Source: Acinetobacter sp. ANC 3832 (GTDB lineage: Bacteria > Pseudomonadota > Gammaproteobacteria > Pseudomonadales > Moraxellaceae). Taken from it: a DNA stretch of 64,000 nt. The stretch spans positions 1-64,000 of the forward strand of contig NZ_NEGJ01000010.1 in assembly GCF_002135415.1 (NCBI RefSeq). The letters are read 5' to 3'. Every line of letters starts with the position of its first letter. Position 1 is the stretch's first letter. Made by a program: the position numbers and the translations under genes. The notes under the pieces are model-generated. The model was given only the letters and a program-made list of their open reading frames with translations. It was not told where the DNA came from and searched no databases. Positions 20,581 to 26,120 of this stretch are shown in pieces.

Positions 20581-20955
20581 ATGAATCATCCTTCAGATTT
20601 GAAGTATGCCGCTACCCATGAGTGGGTTAAAATTGAAGGTGATCTCGTGATTACTGGTATTTCTGACCATGCTCAAGATGCTTTAGGCGACTTGGTGTAT
20701 GTAGAAGCGCCAGAAGTAGGTCGTCATCTTACTGCAGGTGAACAAGCTGGTGTTGTTGAATCTGTGAAAACTGCATCTGATATTCATGCACCGATTTCAG
20801 GTGAAGTTGTCGAAGTGAATAGCGAATTAGAAGATGATCCAGATTTTGTGAATGATGCACCATATGGTAAAGGTTGGATTTACAAAATCAAACCTGACAA
20901 TATGGCAGATGTAGAAAAACTGTTAAGTAATACTGAATACGAAGCAGGTCTATAA
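20581..20955 (+). CDS. gcvH: Glycine cleavage system H protein
   Basis: A 124-residue lipoyl carrier. The lipoylation site is Lys63 in [10 protein letters not shown], and the N-terminal [13 protein letters not shown] and the C-terminal [15 protein letters not shown] are canonical. It shuttles the aminomethyl group among GcvP, GcvT and GcvL, and also serves as a lipoyl donor for 2-oxoacid dehydrogenases in some bacteria. An AAGGAG ribosome binding site lies just upstream. No gcvT or gcvP is nearby and no glycine riboswitch is visible, so this H protein is genetically separate from the rest of the complex in this window. Confidence 0.95.
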
Positions 20956-21020: not shown

Positions 21021-22184
21021 TTAAACATCAGCTGCCTCAGCTTCTGCCATACCAAAGGATGATGGACGAGCCTCTTCATTTCGCTGACGTGAACTTTTTA
21101 ATTTAATCTGCAAGCGTATTTCATTAATAGAATCTGCGTTACGCAGGGCTTCATCATAACCAATCGAACCATCATTATATAAATCAAAAAGTGCTTGGTC
21201 GAAAGTTTGCATGCCTAATTCACGGGATCTTGTCATGACTTCTTTAAGTTCATGAAAATTACCTTTTAAAATAATGTCTGAAACTAATGGTGTATTCAGC
21301 ATAATTTCTACTGCAGCACGACGACCTTTGCCATCCTCAGTACGAATTAAGCGTTGTGAGATAATGGCTTTCATATTGGATGATAAATCCATGAGTAACT
21401 GATTTCGTCGTTCTTCTGGGAAAAAGTTAATAATACGATCTAAAGTTTGGTTGGCATTATTGGAATGTAGTGTTCCTAAACACAGATGACCCGTCTCAGC
21501 AAATGCAATTGCATGTTCCATCGTTTCAGTATCACGGATTTCACCAATTAAAATAACATCTGGAGCCTGACGCAAGGTGTTTTTTAAAGCATTATGCCAA
21601 GAGTGACAATCAACACCGACTTCACGATGGGTAATCATTGATTTTTTATGTTTATGCACATACTCAACAGGATCTTCCACTGTAATAATATGCCCTGCTG
21701 AATGTTCATTTCGATGATCAATCATGGCAGCCAATGAGGTCGATTTACCAGAACCAGTTCCACCCACCACTAAAATTAGACCACGCTTTTCCATAATCAC
21801 ATCTTTTAGTGACTCTGGTAATTTTAATTTTTCAAAATTTGGAATTTCAGCTGTAATCGCACGAATGACCATCCCAACTTGTAATTGTTGTTGGAAAACA
21901 TTGACTCGGAAACGGGATACATTAGGCACTTGAATCGCAAAGTTACATTCTAATTCTGACTCGAACTCAGATCTTTGCTTTTGATTCATTAAACCATAAG
22001 CAAATAGTTTGGTTTTTTCAGCATCTAATACTTGTTGTCCAATCGGTTTCATCAAACCTTGATGCTTAATACTGGGCGGAAAATCTGCTGAAATAAATAA
22101 ATCTGAACCTCCATATTCCACTACTTTAGTCAGCATATGGAACATAAATTTTCGAGCTTCATCTAATAATTCTTCGCTATACAT
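21021..22184 (-). CDS. pilU: Type IV pilus retraction ATPase PilU
   Basis: A 387-residue hexameric ATPase of the PilT/PilU group. Walker A is GGTGSGKST (141-149), followed by the Asp box VEDPVEYVHKHKK, Walker B ILIGEIRD (211-218) and the His box GHLCLGTLHSNNA. The C-terminal extension beyond residue 340, rich in Arg, Ser and Ala, is typical of PilU rather than PilT (about 345 residues). It works with PilT in pilus retraction, twitching and DNA uptake. No pilT is adjacent here, so this locus is separated from, or additional to, a pilT-pilU pair. Confidence 0.85.
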   Translation of the reverse strand: MYSEELLDEARKFMFHMLTKVVEYGGSDLFISADFPPSIKHQGLMKPIGQQVLDAEKTKLFAYGLMNQKQRSEFESELECNFAIQVPNVSRFRVNVFQQQLQVGMVIRAITAEIPNFEKLKLPESLKDVIMEKRGLILVVGGTGSGKSTSLAAMIDHRNEHSAGHIITVEDPVEYVHKHKKSMITHREVGVDCHSWHNALKNTLRQAPDVILIGEIRDTETMEHAIAFAETGHLCLGTLHSNNANQTLDRIINFFPEERRNQLLMDLSSNMKAIISQRLIRTEDGKGRRAAVEIMLNTPLVSDIILKGNFHELKEVMTRSRELGMQTFDQALFDLYNDGSIGYDEALRNADSINEIRLQIKLKSSRQRNEEARPSSFGMAEAEAADV

Positions 22185-22497: not shown

Positions 22498-23553
22498 TTA
22501 GGCACTGCGTTTTAAAGTATTTAACTGCAAATTTTTAGCAACATTCAATAAAAGCTGTTGTGTCTTATCCCATCCTAAACAACCATCTGTCACCGATTGT
22601 CCATAAGTCATATCACATGAAATCTTTTGCTGACCATCGACCAAATGGCTTTCCAACATTACACCACGAACGTTAGTGAAATGACGTTCAGCAATAATTT
22701 GCTCTAAAACTTCAGGTTGTAATAAAGGATTTTTTGAACTATTACCATGACTACAATCAATCACTAAAGCAGGCAATTGAATATTATATTTTTCCTGAAT
22801 TTTTTGAATCGAATGTAAATCGTAATTTGAGCCTGTATTTGAACCACGTAAAATTAAATGTGCACATGGATTACCTTGGCTTTGTAATAAGCTTGGGAAA
22901 CCAGATTGGCTCATGCCTAAGAATTGGTGCTCATTCGACGCAGATTGGATCGCATCCAAAGCAATTTGAATTGATCCATCTGTACCATTTTTAAAGCCAA
23001 TACTGAATGGCATATGACTGGCAATTTCACGATGAATTTGTGATTCACTGGTGCGTGCGCCAATTGCGCCCCAAGCCAATAGATCATCAAAATAAGCTGT
23101 CGCCATTGGACTCAAAATTTCACTGGCAATGGGTAAACCTAATTCAATAATTTCAAGATATAACCCACGAGACTTTTCTAGCCCCATTTGTAAATTTGAT
23201 GACCCATCTAACTGAGGATCATACATATAACCTTTCCAACCCACTGTTGTACGTGGTTTTTCAATATAAGCACGCATGACAAAGAAAATCTGATCTGAAA
23301 CTTGTTGTTGTAATTGTATTAATTTATCAGCATATTCTCGGACAGCAATAGAATCATGAATTGAACAAGGACCTGTGATCACCAATAAACGAGGATCTTG
23401 TCCTGATAAAATATTTTGGATGGTTTGTCTCTGTTCAGCAATTTGTTTTGCTAAAGTGACATTGAGTGGATACTCAGCCTTTAATTGATGGGGCAAACTT
23501 AATTCTATTTCTTTTTTAATATTACTGTTCAGTGCATGGTTTAGCGCATTCAT
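22498..23553 (-). CDS. 3-Deoxy-7-phosphoheptulonate synthase, class I (AroF/AroG/AroH type)
   Basis: A 351-residue enzyme of the E. coli AroFGH type. It condenses phosphoenolpyruvate and erythrose 4-phosphate in the first step of the shikimate pathway. Seen motifs include ITGPCSIHD, RAYIEKPRTTVGWKGYMYDP, GARTSESQIHREIAS, HLILRGS and VIDCSHGNSSK (metal and PEP site). The N-terminal extension of about 40 residues has the allosteric segment, but which aromatic amino acid inhibits it cannot be read safely. AAAGGAAAG precedes the ATG. It is preceded by an attenuator with an aromatic-rich leader peptide and by a second aromatic-rich small ORF, so it is probably controlled by Phe/Tyr supply. Confidence 0.93.
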   Translation of the reverse strand: MNALNHALNSNIKKEIELSLPHQLKAEYPLNVTLAKQIAEQRQTIQNILSGQDPRLLVITGPCSIHDSIAVREYADKLIQLQQQVSDQIFFVMRAYIEKPRTTVGWKGYMYDPQLDGSSNLQMGLEKSRGLYLEIIELGLPIASEILSPMATAYFDDLLAWGAIGARTSESQIHREIASHMPFSIGFKNGTDGSIQIALDAIQSASNEHQFLGMSQSGFPSLLQSQGNPCAHLILRGSNTGSNYDLHSIQKIQEKYNIQLPALVIDCSHGNSSKNPLLQPEVLEQIIAERHFTNVRGVMLESHLVDGQQKISCDMTYGQSVTDGCLGWDKTQQLLLNVAKNLQLNTLKRSA

Positions 23554-23591
23554 GGGTCTTTCCTTTGGACTTTATATTTCAGTCCGATCTT

Positions 23592-23696
23592 TTATTTGAG
23601 CTTCTGGGATCTATTCGATTGCAAGGCTTGAGTCATCACTTGACTAAAGTAAAACCAATAAGAGTTGCTAAAATATGAAAAGTTAAAGTTGTACAT
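23592..23696 (-). CDS. Small aromatic-rich ORF (34 aa) between attenuator terminator and DAHP synthase
   Basis: ATG at 23696, stop TAA at 23592, ending 38 bases before the DAHP synthase start. GGAG lies seven bases before the ATG, a good ribosome binding site. The first 17 residues are MYNFNFSYFSNSYWFYF, with ten aromatic residues; the remaining half is polar (ends NRSQKLK). Such composition is expected of a regulatory leader peptide sensing Tyr and Phe supply. There is no terminator hairpin after it, only a weak GGACT/AGTCC stem before the next ribosome binding site, so any control would be translational or Rho-dependent. Being translated and regulatory is inference. Confidence 0.6.
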   Translation of the reverse strand: MYNFNFSYFSNSYWFYFSQVMTQALQSNRSQKLK

Positions 23697-23728
23697 AATA
23701 TTCTCCAAAAATGTTAAAAATAAAGCAT

Positions 23729-23760
23729 AAAAAAACCTGACCGGTGTTGCCGATCAGGTA
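23729..23760 (-). terminator. Attenuator terminator upstream of the DAHP synthase gene
   Basis: On the minus strand ACCTGA-T-CGG and CCG-G-TCAGGT form a GC-rich stem around the loop CAACA, followed by seven T residues (plus-strand A run 23729-23735). It comes 47 bases after the stop of the 18-residue leader peptide and before the DAHP synthase gene, the order expected of an amino-acid attenuator. Confidence 0.9.
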
Positions 23761-23790
23761 TAAACTTTGATGGGCAACTTATATTTGCCC
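23746..23790 (-). promoter_or_regulatory. Mutually exclusive antiterminator and protector stems
   Basis: Two competing pairings can be drawn on the minus strand. GGGCAA and TTGCCC (23772-23790) form a protector hairpin. Alternatively GTTGCC-C-ATC (23769-23778) pairs with GAT-C-GGCAAC (23746-23755) inside the terminator stem, with nine of ten bases complementary, and would block termination. This is the standard layout of ribosome-mediated attenuation. Confidence 0.8.
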
Positions 23791-23806
23791 AAACATATTC
23801 GAGCAA

Positions 23807-23863
23807 CTATCTAAAGAATTGCCAAAAATAATATGCGTTTGTAATCAAAGGTTGTTTTAACAT
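23807..23863 (-). CDS. Aromatic leader peptide of the DAHP synthase attenuator (18 aa)
   Basis: ATG at 23863, stop TAG at 23807. The peptide is MLKQPLITNAYYFWQFFR, with Tyr-Tyr-Phe-Trp and Phe-Phe in the last eight residues. The control codons fall just before the stem-forming segments, so ribosome stalling there would free the antiterminator. Both Tyr and Phe codons (and one Trp) are present, so the sensed amino acid is likely Phe and/or Tyr. The ribosome binding site is weak (only AAAG before the ATG), which lowers certainty of translation efficiency but not of the overall arrangement. Confidence 0.8.
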   Translation of the reverse strand: MLKQPLITNAYYFWQFFR

Positions 23864-23898: not shown

Positions 23899-23927
23899 AC
23901 AATACGCGTAGTTATAGCCTTTGACAA
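23899..23927 (-). promoter_or_regulatory. Predicted sigma-70 promoter for the aro leader transcript
   Basis: On the minus strand TTGTCA (23927-23922) and TATTGT (23904-23899) are separated by 17 bases. The match is 5/6 to the -35 and 4/6 to the -10 consensus. Transcription would begin about 30 bases before the leader peptide ATG at 23863. Confidence 0.65.
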
Positions 23928-24011: not shown

Positions 24012-26120
24012 TCAACTTAACATTTTTAAAGCATGTTCAGCGCTAATTGCCTTACTAAATAAGAAACCTTGACCTAAATTACAGCCCACAGCTCTTAAAC
24101 TTTCAAGTTGCTGATCCGTTTCAATCCCTTCTGCAATAATATCTAAGGAGAGAATTGGACCCAACTTAGCAATTCCTTCAACAATGGCATTGATTGACTT
24201 CTCTTCATTCATTCGATTCACAAAACCATAATCAATCTTTAAACAATCAACGGGATAATCACGTAAACGCGTTAAAGAAGAATGACCTGTACCAAAATCA
24301 TCTAAAGCAATCCGTACACCGACATCCTTTAACTTTTTCAAAGCACGGATGACATATTCAGAGCCACGCTCTGCCAAAATATGTTCTGTAATTTCAATTT
24401 CAATCAAATGGTGCGGAATTTTAAAGCTGGTTAATCGTTTTAATAAAAGTTCTGCATAGTTATCACGCATAAATTCTACAGGTGATGCATTAATTGAAAT
24501 TGGAACAACATTTATTCCTTGTGCGATCCAACTTGCCATATCTGTAAAAATTTTAGTTTGCATGGTTGTGCTAATTTTACTGGCCAACTCATAATCATTA
24601 AATGCTTCAACAATGGTAGCTGGTAAATGTATTTCATTGTTTTCATCACGCCAACGCAATAAAGCTTCAAAACCAATCAGCGATCGATCATCCAATTTCA
24701 CTTTCGGTTGATAGAATGGCTCTATGGCATTATTTCTTAAAATTTGACGTGCTGTATCAAGTTGCAATGCTTTTTGTTCAGCCAATTCATACATCTCTTG
24801 GCCAAATACTCGTGCACCGCCACGTCCTCTTTCTTTTAAATCATTTAATGCCGTATCTGCACATTTCATTAAACCGACAACATCTTTAGCATCATCAGGA
24901 TACATCGCACAGCCAATACTCATTCCACCATTGATTAATTTACCTGCATAGGTAATTGGTGCATCTAATTGTTTTAAGGCTTCTTGAGCAACAAGAGTCA
25001 TTTCAGCAACACTATGGATTTGGTTGACGATGATTGCAAACTCATCTCCACCTAAGCGCGAAATATAGGCATTTGAATCCAAGCAGCCAGCTAAACGCTT
25101 CGATAAAACTTTCAGTAAATGATCACCTGCAGAATGACCAAGCGTATCATTAATATGTTTAAAGTGATCTAAATCAATCAACATCATACCAACATGGGTA
25201 CGATTTTCTTTCGAACGAATTAAGGATTGTTTTAAGTGTCGTTTAAATGCGCGACGGTTCATTAAGCCTGTCAGTTCATCAAACTCACTTGAAACTCTTA
25301 ACTTATCTTCCGCTTTTTTTTGTAATGTAACATCACGAGATACACATAGAATACTGGTGGTTTGACCTTCATCATTTACGACAGGTGTTAAAATATTATC
25401 CCAATATTGTCGACCTGCACCTAAACCACTCATTCCTGCAAAACGAGCATTTTTGCCTTTTATTGCATCATTAATCGCCTTTTGACCTTTATGACGAACT
25501 TCGGGTGGCAATAAATCTAGCCATTTCATACCAAAGTTTTTTTCACGTTCTTTACCCAATAAGGCAATACAACCTGATCGGTTCATGTGTGAAACATTGC
25601 CGTTTGGTCTGACAATTTTGATGCAATCTACACTGACATCGAGCATATCTGTATGTGCACGTAACATGTCAGTAGTTTCGCGAAGTAAAATGGCGCGCTC
25701 ATGAATATTGGTACAACTAATGGTCCAATTATAAATGTTATTTTTTAAGGGCTTACTTTGTGCAATTAATAAAAACCATTGGTAATCACCTACTGAATTA
25801 CGAATGCGACATTCTTTTTCAAATTTCTGCCCTGTTTTTTGTGCATTCGTCCATAAATTATAAATATGTTCGGCATCTTCAGAATGTATAAATTTAATCC
25901 AATCAGTATCACAGATATTATTAGTTTCAACACCGATGTATGTTTTTAAAGCAGTATTACAATAACCGATATTAGACTGAGTGATCCAAATCAAATGGGG
26001 TAATAAATCTAATGCGAATTTAATTTCATCACTTAATTGCACTGTTTTTATAGGAGTAGAATTTACAGATGCATCTGTCTGACTCAAATTTGAATCACTT
26101 TGTACATTAATGCGAGCCAT
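24012..26120 (-). CDS. PAS-PAS-GGDEF-EAL cyclic-di-GMP protein
   Basis: A 702-residue cytosolic signalling protein with no membrane helix. Two PAS domains (about 30-140 and 155-270) precede a GGDEF domain (about 285-440) with an intact RLGGDEF active site and LMNRRAF start, then an EAL domain (about 450-700) with FEALLRW, NASPVEF, EITEHIL, DDFGTGHSS, KIDYGFV and AEGIET. Both catalytic centres look complete, so it could make as well as degrade c-di-GMP; one activity often dominates. The PAS domains would sense a small ligand or redox state. It is a single-gene unit upstream of the aro attenuator on the same strand. Confidence 0.92.
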   Translation of the reverse strand: MARINVQSDSNLSQTDASVNSTPIKTVQLSDEIKFALDLLPHLIWITQSNIGYCNTALKTYIGVETNNICDTDWIKFIHSEDAEHIYNLWTNAQKTGQKFEKECRIRNSVGDYQWFLLIAQSKPLKNNIYNWTISCTNIHERAILLRETTDMLRAHTDMLDVSVDCIKIVRPNGNVSHMNRSGCIALLGKEREKNFGMKWLDLLPPEVRHKGQKAINDAIKGKNARFAGMSGLGAGRQYWDNILTPVVNDEGQTTSILCVSRDVTLQKKAEDKLRVSSEFDELTGLMNRRAFKRHLKQSLIRSKENRTHVGMMLIDLDHFKHINDTLGHSAGDHLLKVLSKRLAGCLDSNAYISRLGGDEFAIIVNQIHSVAEMTLVAQEALKQLDAPITYAGKLINGGMSIGCAMYPDDAKDVVGLMKCADTALNDLKERGRGGARVFGQEMYELAEQKALQLDTARQILRNNAIEPFYQPKVKLDDRSLIGFEALLRWRDENNEIHLPATIVEAFNDYELASKISTTMQTKIFTDMASWIAQGINVVPISINASPVEFMRDNYAELLLKRLTSFKIPHHLIEIEITEHILAERGSEYVIRALKKLKDVGVRIALDDFGTGHSSLTRLRDYPVDCLKIDYGFVNRMNEEKSINAIVEGIAKLGPILSLDIIAEGIETDQQLESLRAVGCNLGQGFLFSKAISAEHALKMLS

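Follow-up and report, generated by a model that had tools for sequence, protein, structure and literature searches.

A conserved second aromatic-rich leader ORF before the DAHP synthase gene of Acinetobacter and its probable role as a further control layer

In the window, the whole stretch of 64,000 nucleotides of Acinetobacter sp. ANC 3832 DNA analyzed here, a DAHP synthase gene is preceded by two small ORFs rich in aromatic codons with a terminator-like hairpin between them, and the question is what the second of these ORFs (ORF2) does. All leader and synthase features described below are on the minus strand. The synthase gene (22498–23553, with its ATG at 23553) encodes a class I enzyme of the AroF/G/H family, which catalyzes the first step in aromatic amino acid synthesis and matched TIGR00034 with 401 bits (cut-off 173), NF009395 with 471 bits (cut-off 343), and also Pfam PF00793. 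Its ribosome-binding site was assigned by sequence to AGGA at 23561–23564. The 5′ leader of approximately 458–459 nt reaches back to a gene at 24012–26120 with matches to diguanylate cyclase and phosphodiesterase families and contains, in order, a promoter-like site, ORF1, the terminator, ORF2, a hairpin (23585–23567), AGGA, and the synthase ATG. The promoter-like site, TTGTCA-17-TATTGT at 23899–23927, came from a consensus scan that returned fewer sites than in shuffled sequences and is weak alone. A −35-like hexamer followed by TA after 15–19 nt was found in 70 of 71 representative loci with a permissive pattern applied without a control, and TTGTCA, TTGTAA, and TTGCCA accounted for 58, 10, and 2 representatives, respectively. 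A search of the 64-kb window against Rfam at gathering scores returned no known RNA family. On inspection by eye, we take 21021–22184 and 20581–20955 to encode a PilT/PilU-like ATPase and a glycine cleavage H protein, respectively.

The first-pass annotation had described ORF2 as a 34-codon ORF with a GGAG ribosome-binding site, 10 aromatic residues among its first 17, and an end 38 nt before the DAHP synthase start, and all of these figures proved exact. ORF2, encoding MYNFNFSYFSNSYWFYFSQVMTQALQSNRSQKLK, occupies 23592–23696, from an ATG at 23696 to a TAA stop ending at 23592, and GGAG lies at 23703–23706. A version started at TTG would be four codons longer, and the conserved start was the ATG (149/149). 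Codons 8–17 (23646–23675) encode the aromatic core YFSNSYWFYF, and codons 29–34 with the stop (23592–23612) form the tail, RSQKLK. Among the 1087 ATG starts of the window followed by 17 open codons, ORF2 was the only one with more than six aromatic residues in that stretch, and when the 459-nt leader was shuffled 5000 times with its dinucleotides preserved, one shuffle reached at least 10 in 17. ORF2 lies downstream of the terminator-like hairpin at 23759–23735, a position that bears out the earlier proposal that it is presumably translated on read-through RNA only.

A synthase match was found in all 175 Acinetobacter genomes. Upstream DNA was covered for 150 genomes (the main set, in which L151 took the place of L146) and for 24 of the other 25, with G116 left out. 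A leader-bearing synthase was present in 169 of the 175 genomes, and an ATG-started ORF2 was intact in 168 of these (149 of 150 loci in the main set and 19 of 19 further loci). This passed the check that the first-pass annotation had set, namely, conservation of the frame and its aromatic content across the genus. In L100 (G142), which was kept outside the counts of intact ORF2, a 1-nt deletion shifts the frame within the core and the hairpin, the ribosome-binding site, and the gene are intact; it is either a natural mutant or a sequencing error. The genome closest to the window, G110, has a synthase 82% identical. Six genomes (G116, G128, G129, G147, G148, and G168) matched only through a paralogue 46–48% identical, and in ten upstream regions of the paralogue (about 44–48% identical) inspected by eye (L200–L206, L233, L235, and L236) no such leader arrangement was seen. 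Five of these six genomes measure 1.4–2.4 Mb and G168 3.0 Mb; the completeness is 65% for G128 and 90–91% for G116, G129, and G147.

The distribution of ORF2 was confined to the genus in two further searches. The DNA pattern of the core matched 42 records in a second sequence collection, all 42 of which were named Acinetobacter, and an ORF2 peptide profile run on 249 genomes of the family gave E values below 1e-6 only within the genus, the best outside it being 0.006. Weak matches to the profile (E 0.006–0.14) occurred in another genus, g9 (e.g., G196, G206, G241, and G295), at profile positions 11–29 and in open frames of 40–43 codons; these may be chance matches or the leader of some other gene. 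In the genome of the window itself, no second copy of ORF2 was found, the next match having an E value of 0.08.

The substitution pattern of ORF2 was that of a translated sequence. Among close pairs of 121 distinct sequences, pN/pS was 0.25 for the whole ORF and 0.14 for the linker that joins the core to the tail, and the 2187 substitutions fell on codon positions 1, 2, and 3 in the numbers 431, 500, and 1256, respectively. A ribosome-binding motif (GGAG, AGGA, GAGG, or GGA) preceded ORF2 in 147 of 149 loci of the main set and, with a slightly wider motif set, in all 19 further loci. Two rules for the start were used, a stricter one that kept 120 of the 150 loci and another that kept 149; under the former, the peptide had 29–35 residues in 118 of 120 loci, with forms of 30, 31, and 34 residues being common, and the other two lengths were artefacts of start choice. 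The 149 loci comprised 143 distinct regions, from which 71 representatives less than 88% identical were drawn; alignment A2 held 70 of them (without L004). The aromatic fraction was 0.22–0.37 in the 149 intact peptides of the main set, and Trp, Phe, and Tyr were all present in 148 of them. Judged by these signatures, ORF2 is a genuine coding sequence under selection, and its origin as a chance ORF was ruled out by the conservation, the shuffles, the pN/pS ratio, and the bias in codon position.

Does the selection act on the peptide or on its codons? In the main clade, the peptide follows M..FN.SYFSNFYWFYF...RP..LK (45 sequences); Tyr 8 never varies, and at least 90% of these sequences keep Phe 9, Trp 14, Leu 33, and Lys 34. 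Together with the purifying selection on amino acids, as seen in the linker, this would fit an ORF2 peptide that itself acts, as a TnaC-like nascent-chain arrest peptide or as a small protein on DAHP synthase. Arrest peptides of the TnaC type are defined by invariant residues that keep a constant spacing along the chain, but the length of the ORF2 linker varies, and in 18 divergent loci (synthase 55–68% identical) the sequence has been replaced by one no longer recognizable as main-clade-like, such as MSDHFNFYFFYSQSYLSQHTHHQIRSSQK, MFTTYLVAYFQPRFWFYFSANRSEIHTPLLMD, and MYQSYFYLARFYQFWQQIRLSKHLTPLIERNLSCHKLNQQ, with the gene and the position kept. In these 18 loci, 17–31% of the residues were still aromatic, compared with 9.4% in the genes of the window; L229, with a synthase 69% identical, still carried an ORF2 of the main-clade type. 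Because the aromatic content was kept while the sequence was rewritten, ORF2 is more readily understood as a codon sensor than as a small protein or an arrest peptide. ORF1 was also under selection at the same level of pN/pS (0.17), and ORF2 peptides had no match in Pfam or NCBIfam (one and two peptides given, respectively), by which a known small protein was rejected. We therefore consider an action of the peptide itself very improbable.

The first-pass annotation had pointed to two successive aromatic-rich leaders, and both were found and are conserved. ORF1 (23807–23863), with 18 codons encoding MLKQPLITNAYYFWQFFR and a stop, was found together with the terminator by pattern in 148 of 150 loci and by eye in the remaining two. 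Its Trp-Gln codons contain the segment GGCAA (A), which is followed by segments B (UUGCUCG, 23806–23800), C (GGGCAA, 23790–23785), D (GUUGCCC, 23778–23772), and E (CGGCAAC, 23752–23746) within 23746–23806. The predicted folds are mutually exclusive, A:B and C:D with the terminator in one and B:C with D:E in the other. The putative intrinsic terminator (23728–23759) consists of a stem at 23759–23735 and a U tract. Pairing was scored in a fixed register in 84 sequences, which were 69 of the 71 representatives (without L035 and L150) and 15 of the 19 further loci (without L198, L230, and L231, in which the segment motifs were not located, and L229). The paired cells amounted to 96.0%, 94.7%, 98.6%, and 98.4% for A:B, B:C, C:D, and D:E, respectively, and to 99.9% for the terminator stem. 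Doubly changed cells numbered 15 in the terminator stem, against a maximum of 7 in shuffles, and 16 in B:C, against a maximum of 14 in 300 shuffles. A:B, C:D, and D:E showed no covariation beyond all 300 shuffles in these sequences, a result that is uninformative either way because the segments are nearly invariant. The segment order is that of the his leader attenuator, and by its predicted folds the ORF1 region appears to be a standard ribosome-read transcription attenuator.

Of the 181 nt that separate the terminator stem from the synthase gene in the window, ORF2 fills 105, and it might be thought only to keep ribosomes on this RNA and protect it from Rho, a possibility raised in the first-pass annotation, or from RNase. 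Such a function would need neither aromatic codons nor a fixed stop position, and a stall during starvation would expose the RNA to Rho, an effect of the wrong sign; we give this explanation hardly any credence.

The position of the ORF2 stop was examined in relation to the synthase start. In the main set, a hairpin, GGACU...AGUCC (23567–23585), lies between the stop and the synthase ribosome-binding site. Its presence in all 115 distinct spacers proves little because the search was permissive, and the proof is covariation: 15 cells were changed on both sides, against a mean of 2.0 in shuffles (reached in 0 of 500), and such changes occurred in five of the six pairs (1 of 500 shuffles). The hairpin was 95% paired, compared with 12–45% for controls slid along the sequence, and was the sole structure predicted by RNAalifold with default scoring. 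In a covariation scan of all pairs, standard pairs of at least 95% among the 60 top pairs listed occurred only in the hairpin (153:171 and 154:170); the top listed pair, 18:22, lies within the ORF2 ribosome-binding region and formed standard pairs in 57%, and a few isolated pairs of those listed had fractions of 0.89–0.92. In 104 of the 115 distinct spacers, 6 nt separate the stop from the hairpin, and the synthase ribosome-binding motif, found in 113, follows the hairpin by 2 nt in 91. The flanks are fixed, and the loop length is free. The distance from stop to start was 38.0 nt (sd 3.13; range 30–45 nt, the 30-nt cases L081 and L094 being measured to an alternative upstream ATG) and became 19.2 nt (sd 1.55) after subtraction of the hairpin, a constancy that in part merely reflects the conserved flanks.

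The 19 further loci fell into three groups. The stop lay 8–17 nt before the synthase start in six of them, and in seven the stop and the start were 25–34 nt apart and a hairpin was visible by eye. In L197–L199 and L230–L232, ORF2 runs out of frame into the start of the synthase gene, the overlap being exactly 25 nt in each (6/6); a fusion of ORF2 with the synthase in L197–L199 and L230–L231 was rejected, since the long open frames there are this out-of-frame overlap. A terminating ribosome would cover the synthase ribosome-binding site in 12 of the 19 loci (8–17 nt or overlap); for the main clade, the same would hold only after discounting the hairpin, which leaves a net 19 nt. The stop is at or next to the synthase initiation site in all lineages seen, and a ribosome that finishes ORF2 would therefore arrive at or next to the initiation site. 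For the same reason, a layer of control over synthase translation is the best reading of ORF2. Occlusion would be less direct in the main clade than in the lineages with short spacers or overlaps, because a ribosome at the stop would reach the hairpin and not the ribosome-binding site.

This geometry also suits plain translational coupling, in which ORF2 would deliver terminating ribosomes for re-initiation, the hairpin with its free loop and fixed flanks would hold the stop near a start that it adjoins or overlaps in every architecture seen, and the aromatic codons would only tune the supply. The sign of such coupling is wrong for an anabolic gene, however, as starvation would lower the synthase; it leaves unexplained the aromatic content kept in a rewritten sequence, and the synthase has a ribosome-binding motif of its own. 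Coupling by itself is quite unlikely in our estimation. The loci with the 25-nt overlap would provide the cleanest geometry for telling occlusion from coupling.

The results suggest that ORF2 probably lets the ribosome sense the supply of aromatic amino acids a second time and is likely to form a second control layer on the synthase. In the first layer, stalling at the Tyr, Phe, and Trp codons of ORF1 would favor B:C and D:E and hence read-through; in the second, ORF2 would be translated on read-through RNA only. With aromatic tRNAs charged, the ribosome would traverse the core to the ORF2 stop and hinder or re-set synthase initiation, and with these tRNAs uncharged it would stall approximately 100 nt short of the synthase start, leaving the site free, so that the charging of aromatic tRNAs would govern the synthase at the levels of both transcription and translation. 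We infer the stalling on ORF2, its effect on synthase translation, and its sign; stalling should raise synthase output because an anabolic gene should go up, not down, under starvation. This specific scheme, a translational leader behind a ribosome-read attenuator whose completion hinders or re-sets initiation and whose stalling frees the site, has in our judgment a slightly better than even chance of being correct.

Constraints beyond the amino acid sequence were found in the core and tail of ORF2. Synonymous divergence (pS) was 0.034 in the tail (last seven codons), 0.079 in the core, and 0.21 in the linker. In comparison with the codon usage of 40 long ORFs of the window, rare codons were kept in the core for Ser (AGC, 56/62; usage 0.10) and Asn (AAC, 44/55; usage 0.16), and Tyr was encoded by TAC at one position (48/61; usage 0.15) and by TAT at another (62/63). 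The tail kept AGA for Arg (55/59; usage 0.14), CCC for Pro (47/49; 0.10), ATA for Ile (28/28; 0.12), ACG for Thr (40/41; 0.13), and CTC for Leu (63/69; 0.05), the binomial P values for all these rare codons ignoring relatedness. The commonest tail in the genus, AGACCCAUAACGCUCAAAUAA, reads AGA CCC ATA ACG CTC AAA TAA by codon. The third base before CTC was G in 70 of 71 representatives whatever the amino acid, compared with an expected fraction of 0.18. As the same specific rare codon was kept each time, a constraint at the RNA level is likelier than merely slow codons, and from this codon pattern the core and tail look like an RNA element inside the coding sequence. The two-layer leader model does not predict the constraint on the tail.

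Pairing partners for the core and tail were considered. A helix between them was predicted by RNAalifold with RIBOSUM scoring and was absent with default scoring; it was 85.5% paired without covariation, and recoding was significant in 2 of 71 representatives for the tail and in 11 of 71 for the core. Its own pairs did score better than species-swapped ones (p 0.004). Core–tail pairing was not accepted on the grounds that covariation was absent, significant recodings were few, and CCC and CTC would each have their conserved third-base C mismatched in the helix. For the tail, the best window within the leader was the attenuator B:C segment, but an equal score was obtained for a site in the coding region; this pairing reached the 0.05 level in 21 of 70 loci, with a species-swap p of 0.09, and the signal is probably one of G+C content.

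For the core, the partner of most consequence would be the synthase ribosome-binding site. In a switch of the erm or mgtQ kind, the core codons UAUUGGUUUUACUUU would pair with AAAGGAAAGACCAAU, the synthase ribosome-binding site and start, and so mask it; stalling on the core would free the site, and a ribosome that had moved to the tail would permit masking. The complementarity is strong in part of the genus (−19.2 kcal/mol for the duplex in L010), and a core's own duplex with its site scored −13.2, against −12.3 when species were swapped, a difference reached in 0 of 2000 permutations that ignore relatedness. The likeliest partner of the site fell within UUUUACUUU (offset 26–28) in 27 of 71 representatives, the helix register was paired in 81.5% of cells, and TAC, against usage, encodes the Tyr of W-F-Y-F (48/61). 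However, as a partner of the site the core ranked in the top 5% of coding windows in only 25 of 71 (median percentile 0.117), and it beat its own synonymous recodings at 0.05 in 17 of 71 only. Five measures of covariation for the masking helix were all within shuffles. By folding, the mean unpaired probability of the site was 0.52, a ribosome mask placed on the aromatic core shifted its openness by only +0.03 to +0.08, and a mask placed a few codons further, where it spans the last part of the core and the codons beyond, by +0.14 to +0.18. Thermodynamic folding gives no clear switch, direct masking of the site by ORF2 codons is weakly supported, and we regard this switch as unlikely. The suggestion made at first reading, of a second control layer in which stalling alters access to the ribosome-binding site, therefore stands in part: the geometry of the ORF2 stop fits such a layer, but its masking component has a small computed effect and a helix without covariation.

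The preferred reading, a second translational leader, can be widened to a serial two-stage sensor of uncharged aromatic tRNA in a Gram-negative genus, in which the core, the tail, and the covarying hairpin form an undescribed element of translation control; this fuller version is possible, at somewhat less than an even chance. The finding on ORF2 is real and more general than the reading of a single sequence could show. Throughout Acinetobacter, a core metabolic gene is preceded by two small ORFs for which no publication was found, ORF2 being also without a family model. No publication on this Acinetobacter leader was among the matches listed (titles and abstract openings) in the literature on leader peptides, small ORFs, DAHP synthase, and aroG attenuation, and the main text of PMC2965389 has no mention of Acinetobacter, aroG, aromatic, or DAHP. 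If the proposal is true, two ribosome-read leaders in 168 genomes and several geometries would offer a clean system for asking why the same signal is sensed twice, with a sharper response, a lower leak, or noise control as possible gains, and for asking how a leader ORF affects the ribosome-binding site that follows it.

The leader was compared with known systems. Attenuators of the his, phe, and trp type have one leader peptide each. The Acinetobacter leader resembles them in its aromatic-codon ORF1 and in the mutually exclusive sets of A:B, C:D, and terminator versus B:C and D:E, and we know of no attenuator of this type that has another regulated leader past its terminator. Two leader ORFs, ermBL and ermBL2, take part in the translational attenuation of ermB according to the cited passages of PMC8274638; unlike the Acinetobacter leaders, they overlap and respond to erythromycin, and no transcription attenuator between the two ORFs is mentioned in these passages. 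In ermB a drug is the signal, whereas tRNA charging is proposed here. In Salmonella, the small ORF mgtQ lies between mgtC and mgtB, directly before a gene like ORF2, and alternative stem-loops mask or free the ribosome-binding site; the passages of PMC8092293 concerned describe no attenuator, unlike the Acinetobacter leader. As described there, mgtQ needs ribosome-destabilizing acidic residues and not its Pro codon, and for this reason it differs from codon-specific sensing of a pathway product.

The closest likeness is to rtpA (yczA, anti-TRAP) of Bacillus subtilis, to our knowledge the one documented case in which tRNA charging is sensed in tandem at transcription and translation. Completion of its leader peptide, rtpLP, whose stop lies a few nucleotides before the Shine-Dalgarno sequence, blocks rtpA initiation. 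According to passages of PMC4027176 and PMC11255114, which cite Chen and Yanofsky (2003, 2004), transcription and translation of rtpA both respond to uncharged tRNA-Trp, and its translation is controlled through ribosome stalling that depends on tRNA. The Acinetobacter arrangement would be similar in that a terminator decision is followed by a sensor-codon leader controlling translation of the next gene, and a putative second leader past the terminator with codons for the sensed amino acids, as in the rtpLP type, was found with its coding signature in 168 of 169 loci. Rfam includes the T-box family, and a T-box as the first layer was not among its results for the window (0 matches at gathering scores); therefore, the ORF2 arrangement is rtpLP-like in logic and not a member. 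The first layer is a T-box in rtpA and a predicted ribosome-read attenuator in Acinetobacter, the amino acids sensed are Trp only and Phe, Tyr, and Trp, and the controlled gene encodes a regulator in a Firmicute and a pathway enzyme in a gammaproteobacterium, respectively. Unlike rtpA, the main clade of Acinetobacter also has a covarying hairpin between the leader stop and the ribosome-binding site. Tandem sensing is known in kind and would be new in its Acinetobacter form.
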